Below are positions 28,869-38,393 of a stretch of 64,000 nucleotides of DNA, in pieces. Positions within the stretch are counted from its first letter, which is position 1; each line of letters begins with the position of its first letter. Position numbers and translations under genes: made by a program. The DNA lies in contig NZ_QDGZ01000001.1 of NCBI RefSeq assembly GCF_003076135.1, forward strand, positions 62,001 to 126,000, written 5' to 3'. A model generated the notes under the pieces. It was not told where the DNA came from. It was given only the letters and a program-made list of their open reading frames with translations, and did no database searches. This DNA comes from Nocardioides gansuensis (lineage in GTDB: Bacteria > Actinomycetota > Actinomycetes > Propionibacteriales > Nocardioidaceae).

Positions 28869-31154
28869 GTGAGTGCGAAGCGAAGGGCCTCGGGCCCGGC
28901 CGTGACCCGGCGATCCACCCGGCCGCCCACGGGCCGCGAGCGCCTGGTCTCCTGGACCAGGCGACTGCTCGTGGTCAGCCTCGTCCTCTTCGTCGTGGGT
29001 GCGCTCGGCTTCTTCGTCCTCTACAAGGCGATCCCGATCCCGCAGGCCAACGAGGCCTTCAAGGCGCAGACGACGTTCGTCTACTACTCCGGCGGCAAGG
29101 ACCAGCTCGGCACCTACTACGACGAGCAGAACAGGGAGTCGATCCCGCTCTCCGAGATGCCGCAGACCGTCAAGGACGCGGTGGTGGCCTCGGAGAACCG
29201 CTCCTTCTGGACCGACCGCGGCATCGACCCCGTCGGCATCCTCCGCGCCGCGTTCAACAACGCCGGCGGCGGGCCGCGACAGGGCGCGTCGACGATCACC
29301 CAGCAGTACGTGAAGATCCTCTACCTGAGCAGCGAGACGACCTACAAGCGCAAGATCAAGGAAGCGGTCGTCGCGCTCAAGATCGTCCAGGAGATGAGCA
29401 AGCCCGAGATCCTCGAGGGCTACCTCAACACCATCTACTTCGGCCGCGGCGCCTACGGCATCCAGGCCGCCGCGAAGGCGTTCTTCGCCAAGGAGGCCAA
29501 GGACCTCAACCTCCGCGAGAGCGTCGTGCTGGCCAGCGTGCTCAACAACCCCTCGGGGATGGACCCGGAGAACGGCCGGGAGGCCCGGCAGGCGCTGCGC
29601 GAGCGTTACCACTACGTCATCGACGGCATGGCCGACATGGGCACCATCACCGCCCAGCAGGCCACCCGCGCGCACAAGCACCTTCCCGCGTTCCCCGAGG
29701 TCGAGCAGGAGAGCCAGTTCGGCGGTCAGCGCGGCCACGCCCTCCAGCTGGTCAAGAACGAGCTGCTCGCGACCGGCAAGTTCACCGAGGAGCAGATCAA
29801 CAGCGGAGGCCTGCGGATCACCACGACGCTGACCCCCAGGGCGATGGCCGCCGCGGAGCAGGGCGTGCTCGAGGCCAGGCCCGAGGGATTCGGCGACAAG
29901 GAGCTGCACGTCGGCGCGGCCACCGTCGAGGTGGGCACCGGCGCCCTGCGCGGCTTCTACGGCGGCCAGGACTACCTCGACTCCCAGATCAACTGGGCCG
30001 CCACCGGAGGCATGGCGGGGTCGACGATGAAGGGCTTCACCGTCGCCGCCGCCATCAAGGAGGGCTTCGAGCTCACCGACACCTTCGAGGGCAACTCGCC
30101 CTTCGAGTTCCCCGACGGGCTCGCGGTCCGCAACGAGGGCACCGGCACCGACGGCCTGGGCAACGACTACGGCTCGTCGGTCTCGATGCTCGACGCCCTC
30201 GAGGAGTCGATCAACACCGCCTTCGTCGACATGTCCGACTCGATGGACGACGGTCCGGAGAAGATCTACGAGATGGCCCGCGCCCTGGGCATCCCGGGAT
30301 CCGGGCCCTCGAAGAAGAATCCCGGCATCCCGCCACGGTCCGTCGACTTCTCGGCCGACGACGCCCTGGTCACCCTGGGCCGCGCCCGGGTCAGCCCCAT
30401 CAACATGGCCAACGCCTACGCCTCCTTGGCCGCCGGGGGCGAGCGCGCGAACGTCCACGTCGTCGAGCGGGTCGAGGACGCCGCCGGCGAGGTGCTCTAC
30501 TCCTGGAAGCAGTCCACCGAGCGGGTCCTCGACGAGGACATCGCCGCGGACACGACGTACGCCCTGCAGCAGGTGGTGGAGAGCGGCACGGGCCAGGCGG
30601 CGCTCGCCCTCGGCCGGCCCGCAGGGGGCAAGACCGGCACCGCGACCAACGACAAGGACGAGGTGTCCTCGGCCTGGTTCGCCGGCATCACCCCCCAGCT
30701 CGCCACCGCGGTGATGTACGTCCGCGGGGACGGCGACAACGGTCTCGACGGCTGGCTGCCGTCCTACTTCGGCGCGGACTACCCCGCCGACACCTGGACG
30801 GCGATCATGCAGCGGGTGATGGAGGGCTACGACATCGAGGAGTTCCCGCCGCCGGCGTACGTCGACGGCGAGGCCCCCGAGGAGGGTCACGAGTACGTGC
30901 CGCCGCCCCCGCCGCCCTCGACGTCGCAGCCGCAGCCGACGAGGAAGCCCAAGCCCAGCGCGACGGTCAAGCAGAAGCCGACCAAGACCCCGACGCCCAC
31001 GCCGACGGAGACCGTCACGCCGACGCCGACGGACACGCTGGTGCCGACGCCCACTCCGACTCCGACTCCGACGGAGCCGCAGTGCCCGCCCACCGGCTGC
31101 ACACCGCCGCCGTCGCCGTCGCCGACAGCCTCGCGAGTGCCGGCACGACGGTGA
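28869..31154 (+). CDS. ponA: Bifunctional penicillin-binding protein (GT51 transglycosylase / transpeptidase)
   Basis: This 761-aa class A PBP has a short basic cytoplasmic start and one membrane helix (about 31-54). The GT51 domain shows VASENRSFWTDRGIDPVGI, GASTITQQYVK and TIYFGRGAYGIQAAAKAFF. The transpeptidase domain has SxxK as STMK (Ser385), an SxN-like SIN, and KTG at about 588. A Pro/Thr repeat tail (about 680-761) ends the protein and probably spans the wall. The position after ino1/padR matches mycobacterial ponA1. It overlaps the next gene in GTGA. Confidence 0.96.
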   Translation: MSAKRRASGPAVTRRSTRPPTGRERLVSWTRRLLVVSLVLFVVGALGFFVLYKAIPIPQANEAFKAQTTFVYYSGGKDQLGTYYDEQNRESIPLSEMPQTVKDAVVASENRSFWTDRGIDPVGILRAAFNNAGGGPRQGASTITQQYVKILYLSSETTYKRKIKEAVVALKIVQEMSKPEILEGYLNTIYFGRGAYGIQAAAKAFFAKEAKDLNLRESVVLASVLNNPSGMDPENGREARQALRERYHYVIDGMADMGTITAQQATRAHKHLPAFPEVEQESQFGGQRGHALQLVKNELLATGKFTEEQINSGGLRITTTLTPRAMAAAEQGVLEARPEGFGDKELHVGAATVEVGTGALRGFYGGQDYLDSQINWAATGGMAGSTMKGFTVAAAIKEGFELTDTFEGNSPFEFPDGLAVRNEGTGTDGLGNDYGSSVSMLDALEESINTAFVDMSDSMDDGPEKIYEMARALGIPGSGPSKKNPGIPPRSVDFSADDALVTLGRARVSPINMANAYASLAAGGERANVHVVERVEDAAGEVLYSWKQSTERVLDEDIAADTTYALQQVVESGTGQAALALGRPAGGKTGTATNDKDEVSSAWFAGITPQLATAVMYVRGDGDNGLDGWLPSYFGADYPADTWTAIMQRVMEGYDIEEFPPPAYVDGEAPEEGHEYVPPPPPPSTSQPQPTRKPKPSATVKQKPTKTPTPTPTETVTPTPTDTLVPTPTPTPTPTEPQCPPTGCTPPPSPSPTASRVPARR

Positions 31155-34904: not shown

Positions 34905-34997
34905 GCTCTCCCCCGCTATGACGCACCATGCCCTCGAACGGTTGCCCGCAAACCGCAAAATGTTCGCGAGCCGGATGGTCGAGCGGAGTCGAGACCC

Positions 34998-35806: not shown

Positions 35807-35884
35807 GGTCGAGTAGCGAGCGCTGGCGATCTCGGAGGTCGAGTAGCGAGCGCTAGCGAGCGTATCGAGACCCGTATCGAGACC
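35807..35884. repeat. Tandem copies of the GGTCGAGTAGC / CGTATCGAGACC palindromic repeat
   Basis: A partial unit (35807-35829) is followed by a full 36-bp near-palindromic unit (35837-35872) and an extra right half CGTATCGAGACC (35873-35884). The last base touches the stop codon of the kinase gene. Related copies occur at 2742-2754, 34977-34996 and 38026-38078. They resemble REP-type elements and may act as terminators. Confidence 0.8.
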
Positions 35885-36787
35885 TCAGACCAGAGCGGCG
35901 AGCCCGACCACCAGGCAGCCGAGCACCACCGCGACGCACGCGGCGACGGCGGCCCAGCCACCCCAGTCGACCGGTCCGCGCGGCGCCGGGCCGAGGCGGT
36001 CGTGGATCGGGGGGCCGGGCTCCGGGGGCACGTCGAGGCGGCGCAGGAGGCGGAGCGCCGCGTCGGCGGTGGGCAGCCGCTGCTCGGGGTCGGTGACGAG
36101 CAGCGGCTCGAGCAGCGGGCGCAGCGGGTGGGACGGCACCTCCACCTGCCGGGCCGGCGGGAGGCCGGTGACCAGCTGGAGCCCCACCCGGCCCACGGCG
36201 TAGAGGTCCTGGCGCGGGTCCGGCAGCGCGCCCTGCGCCTGCTCCGGCGCCATGTAGCCGTCGGTGCCGATCGCCCCCGGGACGGTGGTGTAGCGCTGGT
36301 CGGCGATCGGCGCGGCCACTCCGAGGTCGGCCAGCCGCAGGTGGGGGGTGCCGGTGCCGGTCGCCTCGAGCAGCAGGTTGGCGGGCTTCACGTCCCGGTG
36401 GACGAGCCCGGCCCCGTGGACGGCGGCGAGCCCGAGCAGCAGCTGCTCGAGCAGCAGCGCCGCGAAGCCGGCGGGCAGCGGCCCGTGCCGGTCGACGAGC
36501 TCCTTGACCGAGCCGCCGGACACCAGGTCCATCGACAGCACGACGAGGTCGTCCTCTGCGGCCCAGCCCGTCGGCGCGACGACGTGCGGGTGCCGGATCC
36601 GCACGGACTGCTCGCGGACGAACCGGACCAGCAGGGCCCCGCTGTGCTGCCCCAGCACCTTGACGGCGACCTCCCGGCGGGCGCGGGTGTCGCGGGCCCG
36701 CCAGACCGAGCCCATCCCGCCCACGCCGATCTGCTCGAGCAGCAGGTAGCGGCCGGCGACGGTGGCGGTGGGCTGCGGGCGGAGCAC
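35885..36787 (-). CDS. Serine/threonine protein kinase (Pkn family, membrane-anchored)
   Basis: In this 300-aa protein, residues 10-245 form a kinase domain: glycine loop [18 protein letters not shown], catalytic [12 protein letters not shown], and [13 protein letters not shown]. The DFG motif reads DLG, which still keeps the metal-binding Asp. A single hydrophobic helix ([22 protein letters not shown]) ends the protein with no outer sensor domain. I chose GTG 36787 because longer starts would run into the rpsF promoter region and add low-complexity sequence. Its substrates are unknown. Confidence 0.92.
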
Positions 36788-37392: not shown

Positions 37393-37983
37393 ATGGCAGG
37401 CGAGACCGTCATCACCGTCGTCGGCAACCTCGTCGACGACCCGGAGCTGCGCTTCACCCCCTCGGGTGCGGCCGTGGCCAACTTCCGGATCGCGTCGACG
37501 CCGCGCACCTTCGACCGGCAGACCAACGAGTGGAAGGACGGCGACGCGCTGTTCCTCTCCTGCTCGGTCTGGCGGCAGGCCGCGGAGAACGTCGCGGAGT
37601 CCCTCCAGAAGGGGATGCGCGTGGTGGTGCAGGGGCGCCTGAAGTCCCGCCAGTACGAGACCCGCGAGGGCGAGAAGCGCACCGTGTTCGAGATCGAGGT
37701 CGAGGAGGTCGGGCCGTCGCTGAAGTATGCGACTGCCAAGGTCTCCCGCACCACCCGTCAGGGTGGCGGCGGCGGTTTCTCCGGCGGCGGCGCTCCCGCG
37801 GACGACCCGTGGGCCACGCCCGCTGCTCCGCAGCAGGGTGGCTACGGCGCGCCGCAGGGCGCGCCGCAGCAGGGCGGCGGCCAGGGTGGCTGGGGTGGTC
37901 CTCCGCAGGGCCAGCCGCAGTCCGCTCCGGCCAACGACCCGTGGGCCACCCCGGGTGTCTCGTCCGAAGAGCCTCCCTTCTGA
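37393..37983 (+). CDS. ssb: Single-stranded DNA-binding protein
   Basis: This 196-aa OB-fold protein ([20 protein letters not shown], then [21 protein letters not shown]) coats single-stranded DNA as a tetramer. The Gly/Gln-rich disordered tail includes two DPWATP repeats and ends in the acidic tip SSEEPPF that docks partner proteins. Downstream lie repeat hairpins that may end or attenuate the transcript before rpsR. Confidence 0.97.
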
Positions 37984-37988
37984 CCGCC

Positions 37989-38078
37989 CGGTGCCGAGCC
38001 TGCGAGGCACCGAAGGGGCGGGCAGATCGAGTAGCGCCACGGCTGAGCCTGCGAAGCCGTGACGCGCGTATCGAGATC
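37989..38078. repeat. Two hairpins with the same loop GAGCCTGCGA, the second inside a palindromic repeat
   Basis: Hairpin A pairs CGGTGCC (37989-37995) with GGCACCG (38006-38012). Hairpin B pairs CACGGCT (38038-38044) with AGCCGTG (38055-38061). Both enclose GAGCCTGCGA although their stems differ. Hairpin B is framed by GATCGAGTAGC (38026 on) and CGTATCGAGATC (to 38078), so it is a copy of the genome-wide repeat. The block separates ssb from rpsR. Confidence 0.75.
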
Positions 38079-38156
38079 CAGTACTAACCGAATTCACCTC
38101 AACCATTCCGGCACAACCCCGCCAGGGGGCCGGGCTTCTAGGAAGGAAGCACCACA

Positions 38157-38393
38157 ATGGCCAAGGCAGTGATTCGCAAGCCGAAGAAGAAGGTTTGCCA
38201 GTTCTGCAAGGAGAAGGCGTCCGGTGTCGACTACAAGGACACCACGCTGCTCCGCAAGTTCATCTCCGACCGCGGCAAGATCCGTGCCCGTCGGGTGACC
38301 GGCAACTGCGTCCAGCACCAGCGCGACGTGGCCACGGCCGTCAAGAACGCCCGCGAGGTCGCTCTGCTGCCCTACACGTCCACCGGTCGTTGA
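38157..38393 (+). CDS. rpsR: 30S ribosomal protein S18
   Basis: This 78-aa protein, [20 protein letters not shown], ends in [10 protein letters not shown]. It is of the zinc-type (C+) form: CQFC (14 and 17) plus Cys and His in TGNCVQHQ can coordinate zinc. It binds 16S rRNA next to S6. AGGAAGGA precedes the ATG. Actinobacteria often have a second, zinc-free S18 elsewhere. Confidence 0.98.

Follow-up and report, generated by a model that had tools for sequence, protein, structure and literature searches.

REP (repetitive extragenic palindromic) sequences tagged with GTAG or CGTC are, according to the available text of a REP survey, short imperfect palindromes present in many copies, whose stems fall into subfamilies with alternative complementary bases (PMC3733652). 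As described there, they occur in several loop formats and as dimers and clusters, lie mostly near the 3' ends of open reading frames (ORFs), sometimes supplying the stop codon, are located between convergent or same-direction ORFs and often show G-T pairing (PMC3733652). Here we describe a REP-like repeat of the actinobacterium Nocardioides gansuensis, a unit of two consecutive hairpins that lies between ssb and rpsR in a 64,000-nucleotide stretch of contig NZ_QDGZ01000001.1 (positions 62,001 to 126,000 of the forward strand), referred to below as the window. This unit is a member of a dispersed family in which pairing is strongly maintained and whose copies are tied mainly to gene 3' ends, with the first hairpin against the stop codon.

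The mycobacterial interspersed repetitive units (MIRUs) are actinobacterial repeats of 50-100 bp that occur in tandem copies and in sense orientation, insert at TGA stop codons and contain small ORFs. The hosts of tagged REPs given in the main text of PMC3733652, in which the word actinobacteria does not occur, are Proteobacteria, Cyanobacteria, Chloroflexi, the Planctomycetes-Verrucomicrobia-Chlamydiae (PVC) group, Chlorobi, Bacteroidetes, Spirochaetes and Thermotogae. In Escherichia coli, REPs within 15 nucleotides (nt) of a stop codon lower translation, and 446 of 4,072 predicted REPs (about 11%) lie so close, according to the available text of PMC12306157. Hairpin clusters after stop codons have been proposed as terminators in general, and not as one homologous repeat family (available text of PMC8355165), and stable hairpins are generally common at this 3' location (available text of PMC1590033).

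Architecture and base pairing of the unit

The unit is about 95 bp long and consists of an upstream hairpin, h1, followed by a conserved element, h2. Each hairpin is typically built of a two-part stem, a short A-rich bulge on its 3' side and tandem G-A / G-A mismatches, and ends in a very short cap. The caps read CNNG or GNA, and by eye the loops include GAG-CNNG-CGA, GAG-GNA-CGA and GAC-GNA-GGA, often unlike between h1 and h2. CUUG tetraloops and GNA triloops are very stable caps.

In the window, h1 (37984..38021, plus strand) begins at the base directly after the stop codon of ssb (37393..37983, plus strand; C-terminal ...SSEEPPF, stop TGA at 37981-37983). Its upper stem, CGGTGCC/GGCACCG (37989-37995/38006-38012), encloses the loop and stands on a basal stem in the CCGCC/GGCGG region, with an A-rich bulge on the 3' side. 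The linker (38022..38024, plus strand) reads GCAG with the next G included, and in most listed copies it reads, by eye, (A/C/G)AG ahead of GTCGAG. The h2 hairpin (38025..38078, plus strand) is the imperfect palindrome GATC-GAG-T-A-GCGC-CACGGCT-[GAG CCTG CGA]-AGCCGTG-AC-GCGC-GTATC-GA-GATC, and is matched over 38026-38078 with 75.2 bits by R1, a covariance model built from 38 elements. Its outer arms are GATC (38025-38028) and GATC (38075-38078), where most other copies have GGTC/GACC; inside these lie GA..GA, a G-C pair and a covarying pair termed X-Y (38032/38070), followed by the basal stem GCGC (38034-38037/38064-38067), an AC bulge (38062-38063) and the upper stem CACGGCT/AGCCGTG (38038-38044/38055-38061).

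An earlier note on this sequence had pointed to two hairpins between ssb and rpsR with unlike stems and an identical loop, GAGCCTGCGA, and had suggested a structured RNA or a REP hairpin. Both hairpins (37989-38012 and 38038-38061) indeed have perfect 7-bp stems and lie between the ssb stop codon and the rpsR ATG at 38157, and the window contains GAGCCTGCGA at just two places, 37996-38005 and 38045-38054. The two had been compared as equals, but are different parts of one unit. That stems covary around a constrained loop is borne out, whereas a fixed 10-mer is not: the constraint falls on a GA...GA frame, a short cap, the bulge and the outer arms. 'REP hairpin' turns out to be the best description of a repeat that is dispersed, intergenic, palindromic, located 3' of genes and arrayed, and the interpretation was partly right.

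The loop word was also considered as the defining signal of the family, and was rejected since family loops vary and 16 or 17 of its 22 occurrences in the 4.77-Mb genome lie outside comparable hairpins. The reversed control word occurs 5 times. Five of the 22 sites have, by eye, a flanking Watson-Crick stem of 5-9 bp (two in the window, two at C1:530.6 kb and one at C1:828.4 kb), and a sixth (L020) has a 5-bp stem only if two G-T pairs are counted. With only five sites in clear hairpins, the expectation that the word is over-represented there survives as a mild enrichment, and its identity in h1 and h2 of the window is partly luck, as the two hairpins of many units differ in loop.

Across the family, the outer arms of h2 are strongly conserved (GGTCGAG...TCGAGACC in most copies), and most h2 are preceded by an h1 of the same design with another stem. 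The h1 upper stem ends about 10-20 nt before h2, and this interval is made up of the bulge and the basal arm, mostly ending in AG. A tandem-GA hairpin with a stem of at least 5 was found in 34 of 43 segments directly upstream of h2 compared with 0 of 215 control 60-nt segments taken near family members, which places these hairpins beyond chance. At a cut of 4, such a hairpin was found in 64 of 92 upstream segments, and several of the remainder contain, by eye, a hairpin with fully paired GA/TC or another loop. In several loci of two genomes (G025 and G041) an inverted short element follows h2.

Two unusual relatives were also observed. At L051 1501-1557 (G000:C9:92608-92664), the outer arms surround a long, ordinary-looking GC hairpin (GAAGGCCCCCCGAGC...) where the core is normally found; it looks as though a terminator hairpin had been substituted. 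The ssb-rpsR gap of a Marmoricola metagenome-assembled genome (L070, from 2140) contains a minimal relative, GTGGTCGAGCTTGTCGAGACCAC, with GA..GA mismatches beside a G-C closed loop, which is perhaps the simplest form of the element.

Pairing is strongly maintained in the repeat. In A1, an h2 alignment of 36 typed elements picked by eye (the long type with GAG-N3/4-CGA loops, leaving out short types and GACGAAGGA loops, so that its loop conservation is partly due to selection), double changes occur at 12 of 17 pairs, 93.9% of cells are paired, and covariation is 0.362 compared with 0.146 (sd 0.013) after shuffling and at most 0.056 with slid partners. In A4, from other species and aligned by R1, 14 of 16 pairs vary on both sides, and covariation is 0.450, compared with 0.149 after shuffling and no more than 0.090 with slid partners; sets A2-A4 lean towards A1, having been found with a model built from it. 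Throughout, the loci are mostly best-scoring matches and not a random sample, and p values assume too much independence, since the genomes are related.

Triplet and stem counts are based on 142 distinct long elements (135 parsed, 7 unparsed). The outer triplets of the 135 are GTC/GAC in 95, GTT/AAC in 20, ATC/GAT in 12, ATT/AAT in 2 and other in 6. The X-Y pair, which is outside the pairs of R1 and readable in 114 of the 142, is TA in 74, CG in 34, GC in 3 and other in 3. Among 945 upper-stem pairs, 903 are Watson-Crick, 10 are G-U, 5 are A-C and 27 are other. Folding of the window copy (37984-38080) gives z -2.65 as RNA and z -3.08 as DNA, and no Rfam family matches this segment up to E 10.

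Dispersal, gene ends and orthologous sites

Units have been copied around genomes and tandemly amplified. In this genome, the outer-arm pattern GTCGAG...GTATCGAGAYC has 26 matches at 20 places (the reversed pattern has 0) and R1 has 39 matches (E ≤ 0.001); the related genome G010 has 102 (E ≤ 1e-6). The strict outer-arm pattern is matched in 21 of 59 genomes of Nocardioides, the genus to which the best relatives of ssb also point, and R1 in 12 of 20 near relatives, all within the genus (E ≤ 1e-6). At family level R1 matches 49 of 120 genomes, from 9 of 26 genera (E ≤ 1e-5), and at class level 23 of 296, from 6 of 114 genera (E ≤ 1e-4). Among the 25 genomes from which named loci come, 13 are matched at E ≤ 1e-5, with 24 in N. 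alpinus, 46 in Nocardioides sp. Yes46-02, 31 in N. pocheonensis and 36 in Mumia quercus; at this threshold the other 12, including N. currus, N. zeae, N. alkalitolerans, one Streptomyces and one Jiangella, have none. Weaker matches beyond the Nocardioidaceae were seen in G149, G259, G294, G320 and G343 (family f37) and in G194 (family f5), whose E of 4.7e-10 is the best outside the Nocardioidaceae and whose listed matches are 46-47 nt long. No blastn match to 37985-38080 was found in plasmid and phage collections at E 0.01.

Tandem arrays were detected in 3 of 4 loci scanned, the other being L200 of G004. Those of G010 comprise a 142-nt unit repeated 4.5 times at 97%, a 98-nt unit repeated 3.3 times at 99% and a 91-nt unit repeated 3.3 times at 99%; the 98- and 91-nt units correspond to h1+h2, and the 142-nt unit to a long element plus an inverted short element. 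The h1-h2 pair, the arrays and the inverted short element thus form a mosaic of distinct palindromes with tandem amplification, as in bacterial interspersed mosaic elements (BIMEs).

Units occur mainly at gene 3' ends, where h1 abuts the stop codon. Context and pair statistics cover elements of 50-58 nt only, with genes called by a codon-bias script and not taken from annotation. The 158 long matches were reduced to 134 by removing identical contexts and collapsing arrays; just 3 of these short palindromes lie inside a called ORF, the rest being intergenic as expected of a REP in the broad sense, and with 2 more that lack a neighbour set aside, 129 were used. Fifty-seven lie between convergent and 4 between divergent genes, and between same-direction genes 50 are in sense and 18 in antisense orientation (p 1.3e-4). 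A same-strand upstream gene is present for 107 of the 129 (33 of 43 and 78 of 91 in earlier subsets), and in 86 of the 107 its stop lies 29-59 nt before h2, where random placement in the same gaps gave a mean of 24 and a maximum of 37 (2000 runs); this is the ORF 3'-end location typical of REPs. The 86 stops are TGA in 68 and TAG in 18, with no TAA, a codon that is rare in GC-rich genes. Other copies begin at TCATGA, TCACG or TCCGAG and not at a called stop, and at L187 two units face each other, one after a called stop and the other after a TGA without a called gene.

A separate observation concerns antisense copies that abut start codons in N. alpinus (L267, L268, L269, L272 and L277) and G012 (L225), which have a shared sequence like CATGTCACGACCCTAG and, on the strand of the gene, CTAGGGT or similar a few nt before the ATG. 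The latter looks like a leaderless promoter box beside the repeat.

At some sites, different species carry a unit behind the same gene, with both bases of a pair exchanged together. Elements were taken as orthologous when a homologous same-strand upstream gene (within 130 nt, at least 55% identity) was present in different genomes; 47 of 98 elements, in 18 groups, stand after a homologous gene of another genome, and 2 of the 47 (L242:847 and L276) were unparsed. In 42 orthologous element pairs, 333 of 420 base pairs are identical, 73 are changed on both sides and still paired, 6 differ by a G-U and 8 are unpaired in at least one element, so that pairing is kept by double change in 73 of the 87 altered pairs. 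Upper-stem identity is 0.804 in orthologous compared with 0.688 in non-orthologous pairs (0 of 5000 permutations). According to NCBIfam, upstream genes include those for dihydrolipoyl dehydrogenase, acetyl-CoA acetyltransferase, malate dehydrogenase and pantothenate kinase; upstream aceE and a PcrA-like helicase gene, both cut by the locus edge, score below the NCBIfam model cut-off.

The ssb site is one of these. This genome, N. alpinus and G006 share the h2 upper stem CACGGCT there. Listed in that order, they have GATC/GATC, GGTT/AACC and GATC/GATC as outer arms, T-A, C-G and G-C at X-Y, and the h1 stems CGGTGCC, CACTGCC and CGCTGCC, all paired with a complementary arm. Of 80 relatives, 79 have a readable ssb-rpsR gap; one of these gaps contains the unit (N. 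alpinus), another the short relative (L070) and a third a remnant (L076). G006 also carries an h1-h2 unit there. A seven-base arm match in this gap of a Streptomyces (L103) looks like chance.

Elsewhere in the window, a second family copy (35807..35885, plus strand; R1 match, 35.0 bits) comprises two elements of the short type (GGTCGAGTAGCGAGCGCTRGCGA...) in which the GTATCGAGACC end is doubled, and lies upstream of a gene called on the minus strand. Weak outer-arm-only matches at 30179-30194 (minus strand; E 0.013) and 34978-34996 (plus strand; E 0.026) are possibly minimal members of the form GGTCGAG-loop-TCGAGACC. The next gene after the unit is rpsR (bS18; 38157..38393, plus strand; recognised from its translation), and the operon appears to be rpsF-ssb-rpsR-rplI. 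Directly 5' of rpsR, a conserved leader (38104-38160; CCATTCCGGC..GCCGGGCTTCTAG..GGAAGCACCACAATGG) is predicted to form a closed three-way junction, with CCATT paired to AATGG around the start codon. The leader is present in the 20 sequences chosen (Nocardioidaceae, Nonomuraea-type genera and Jiangella), with double changes at 4 of its 14 predicted pairs, and it has no Rfam match; it could be an rpsR control element.

Proposed role and rival explanations

On balance, we lean towards regarding the repeat as a REP/BIME-like interspersed family of the Nocardioidaceae that is transcribed and serves as a double-hairpin 3' barrier of the upstream mRNA. The unit would be transcribed as the end of that mRNA, where the two hairpins could stop or pause RNA polymerase without a U-tract, block 3' exonucleases or slow ribosomes at the stop codon. 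Insertions near a stop would be tolerated, and some would then be retained.

Several observations weigh against this reading. The intrinsic terminator scan found none at the element, and neither hairpin is followed by a U-tract. Since the unit at ssb-rpsR lies within an operon, full termination is unlikely there, as rpsR and rplI would be cut off; partial attenuation or mRNA protection fits the gene order better. The unit is also dispensable at this site, being absent from most relatives there. Among the 129 units, 18 run antisense to both flanking genes, and several of the N. alpinus copies lie in antisense orientation directly against a start codon. Independent insertion at the same stop codon may explain some orthologous sites. 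Finally, the excess of G-U pairs expected from RNA selection is not seen (G-U against A-C, p about 0.3), and with G-U so rare the pair exchanges fit DNA-level maintenance or copying from a perfect master equally well; this rarity is evidence against a pure RNA account.

A bolder version, in which the family has been domesticated as a portable mRNA 3'-end module of the Nocardioidaceae, is doubtful. Its parts would be a directional pair of hairpins that has G-A mismatches and hyperstable caps and is located at the stops of dozens of genes, a dedicated recognition factor, DNA-level exchange from arm to arm and a mover other than a REP-associated tyrosine transposase (RAYT).

The main rival is purely selfish mobile DNA with an insertion preference for TGA/TAG-like sequences, like that of the mycobacterial MIRUs, for which stops are the safest targets and whose pairing is kept for movement or by arm-templated repair. 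It is a serious possibility, if an unlikely one. The recent tandem arrays, the almost exclusively Watson-Crick upper stems, the restriction of stops to TGA and TAG, the start of other copies at TCATGA, TCACG or TCCGAG away from called stops, and the patchy presence among genomes would all be expected of such DNA. However, stop placement is about 3.5 times the random expectation in the same gaps, units after the same gene in different species have stems more alike than other pairs while their flanking bases look diverged by eye, and the known REP-type transposase was not found in the 59 genus genomes.

A signal acting at the DNA level is rather improbable. Here the hairpins would form in single-stranded or cruciform DNA and be bound by protein, with gene ends favoured because supercoils gather there. 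REPs and BIMEs of E. coli are bound by gyrase, Pol I or IHF. The near absence of G-U and the number of units between convergent genes agree with this, as does the stable DNA fold of 37984-38080. A symmetric signal would nevertheless have no need of the bias in direction between same-direction genes or of h1 facing the stop in 86 of 107 units.

Two explanations are highly improbable. If each gene had independently acquired ordinary intrinsic terminators in tandem, this would account for two adjacent hairpins just past a stop, as in the terminator clusters described in the available text of PMC8355165, but the U-tract is missing, and arms, bulge and loop frame that are conserved between unrelated genes, together with the tandem copies, indicate common descent. 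A regulatory RNA specific to ssb-rpsR and bound by a ribosomal or other protein is suggested by the location and by compensatory arm changes with which the unit is kept in this genome (G000), N. alpinus and G006; the occurrence of the unit at unrelated genes (dihydrolipoyl dehydrogenase, thiolase, aceE, PcrA-like helicase, malate dehydrogenase and panK) and its absence from this gap in most relatives speak against it, and the dispersal in effect refutes such a role.

Least credible of all is a classical RAYT-mobilised REP: the repeat is palindromic, has GTAG near the 5' foot of many copies and forms dimers and arrays, but none of the 59 genus genomes, including its own and G010 with its 102 copies, has a Y1_Tnp (PF01797) match, where the positive control matched in 5 of 14 named genomes, and the letters of GTAG are variable, with one of them in a base pair.

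Comparison with described repeat systems

Text searches of the literature returned no occurrence of GGTCTCGATACGC or GTATCGAGACC, and for GAGCTTGTCGA papers that look unrelated by title, among the matches listed. By title or start of abstract, none of the matches listed describes this repeat family; the words 'palindromic repeats' appear twice in a paper on a Nocardioides genome (PMC5526307). The tag and transposase criteria that define the GTAG/RAYT superfamily also place the repeat outside it: a conserved unpaired GTAG tag is absent, since X, the position that follows GAG, varies among T, C and G and is paired with Y, and by eye no terminal CGTC motif is present at the ends of A1 elements or units.

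An abundant REP-like family is present in a phylum that the main text of PMC3733652 does not mention, in genomes without a detectable RAYT. This makes two questions testable. One is what moves and maintains REPs if there is no RAYT; the other is whether a REP at a stop codon functions as an mRNA 3' end or is an insertion that is tolerated. The rare G-U intermediates also offer a natural case in which to study arm-to-arm correction in palindromes.

The repeat works like a REP or BIME, with new features, and is undescribed in the literature searched. It resembles the GTAG- and CGTC-tagged REPs, as the available text of PMC3733652 describes them, in its palindromes, copy number, stem exchange, loop variety, dimers and 3'-end location; it differs from them in its Nocardioidaceae hosts, rare G-T pairs, lack of a conserved unpaired tag, directional pair of unlike hairpins and lack of a Y1 transposase in the genomes searched. 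With enterobacterial BIMEs, as generally understood and as far as the available text of PMC2817692 goes, it shares a mosaic of different palindromes and near-identical tandem arrays, whereas in the Nocardioidaceae inverted short elements trail only part of the copies. The likeness to MIRUs (actinobacterial, 50-100 bp, tandem copies, sense orientation, at TGA stops) is one of general description. Like the clusters in the available text of PMC8355165, the unit places two adjacent hairpins just past the stop, but here as one homologous repeat family. As with the stop-proximal REPs of E. coli (available text of PMC12306157), a hairpin directly follows the stop codon; in E. coli about 11% of predicted REPs lie within 15 nt of a stop, while in the family described here h1 is at the stop in most copies examined.
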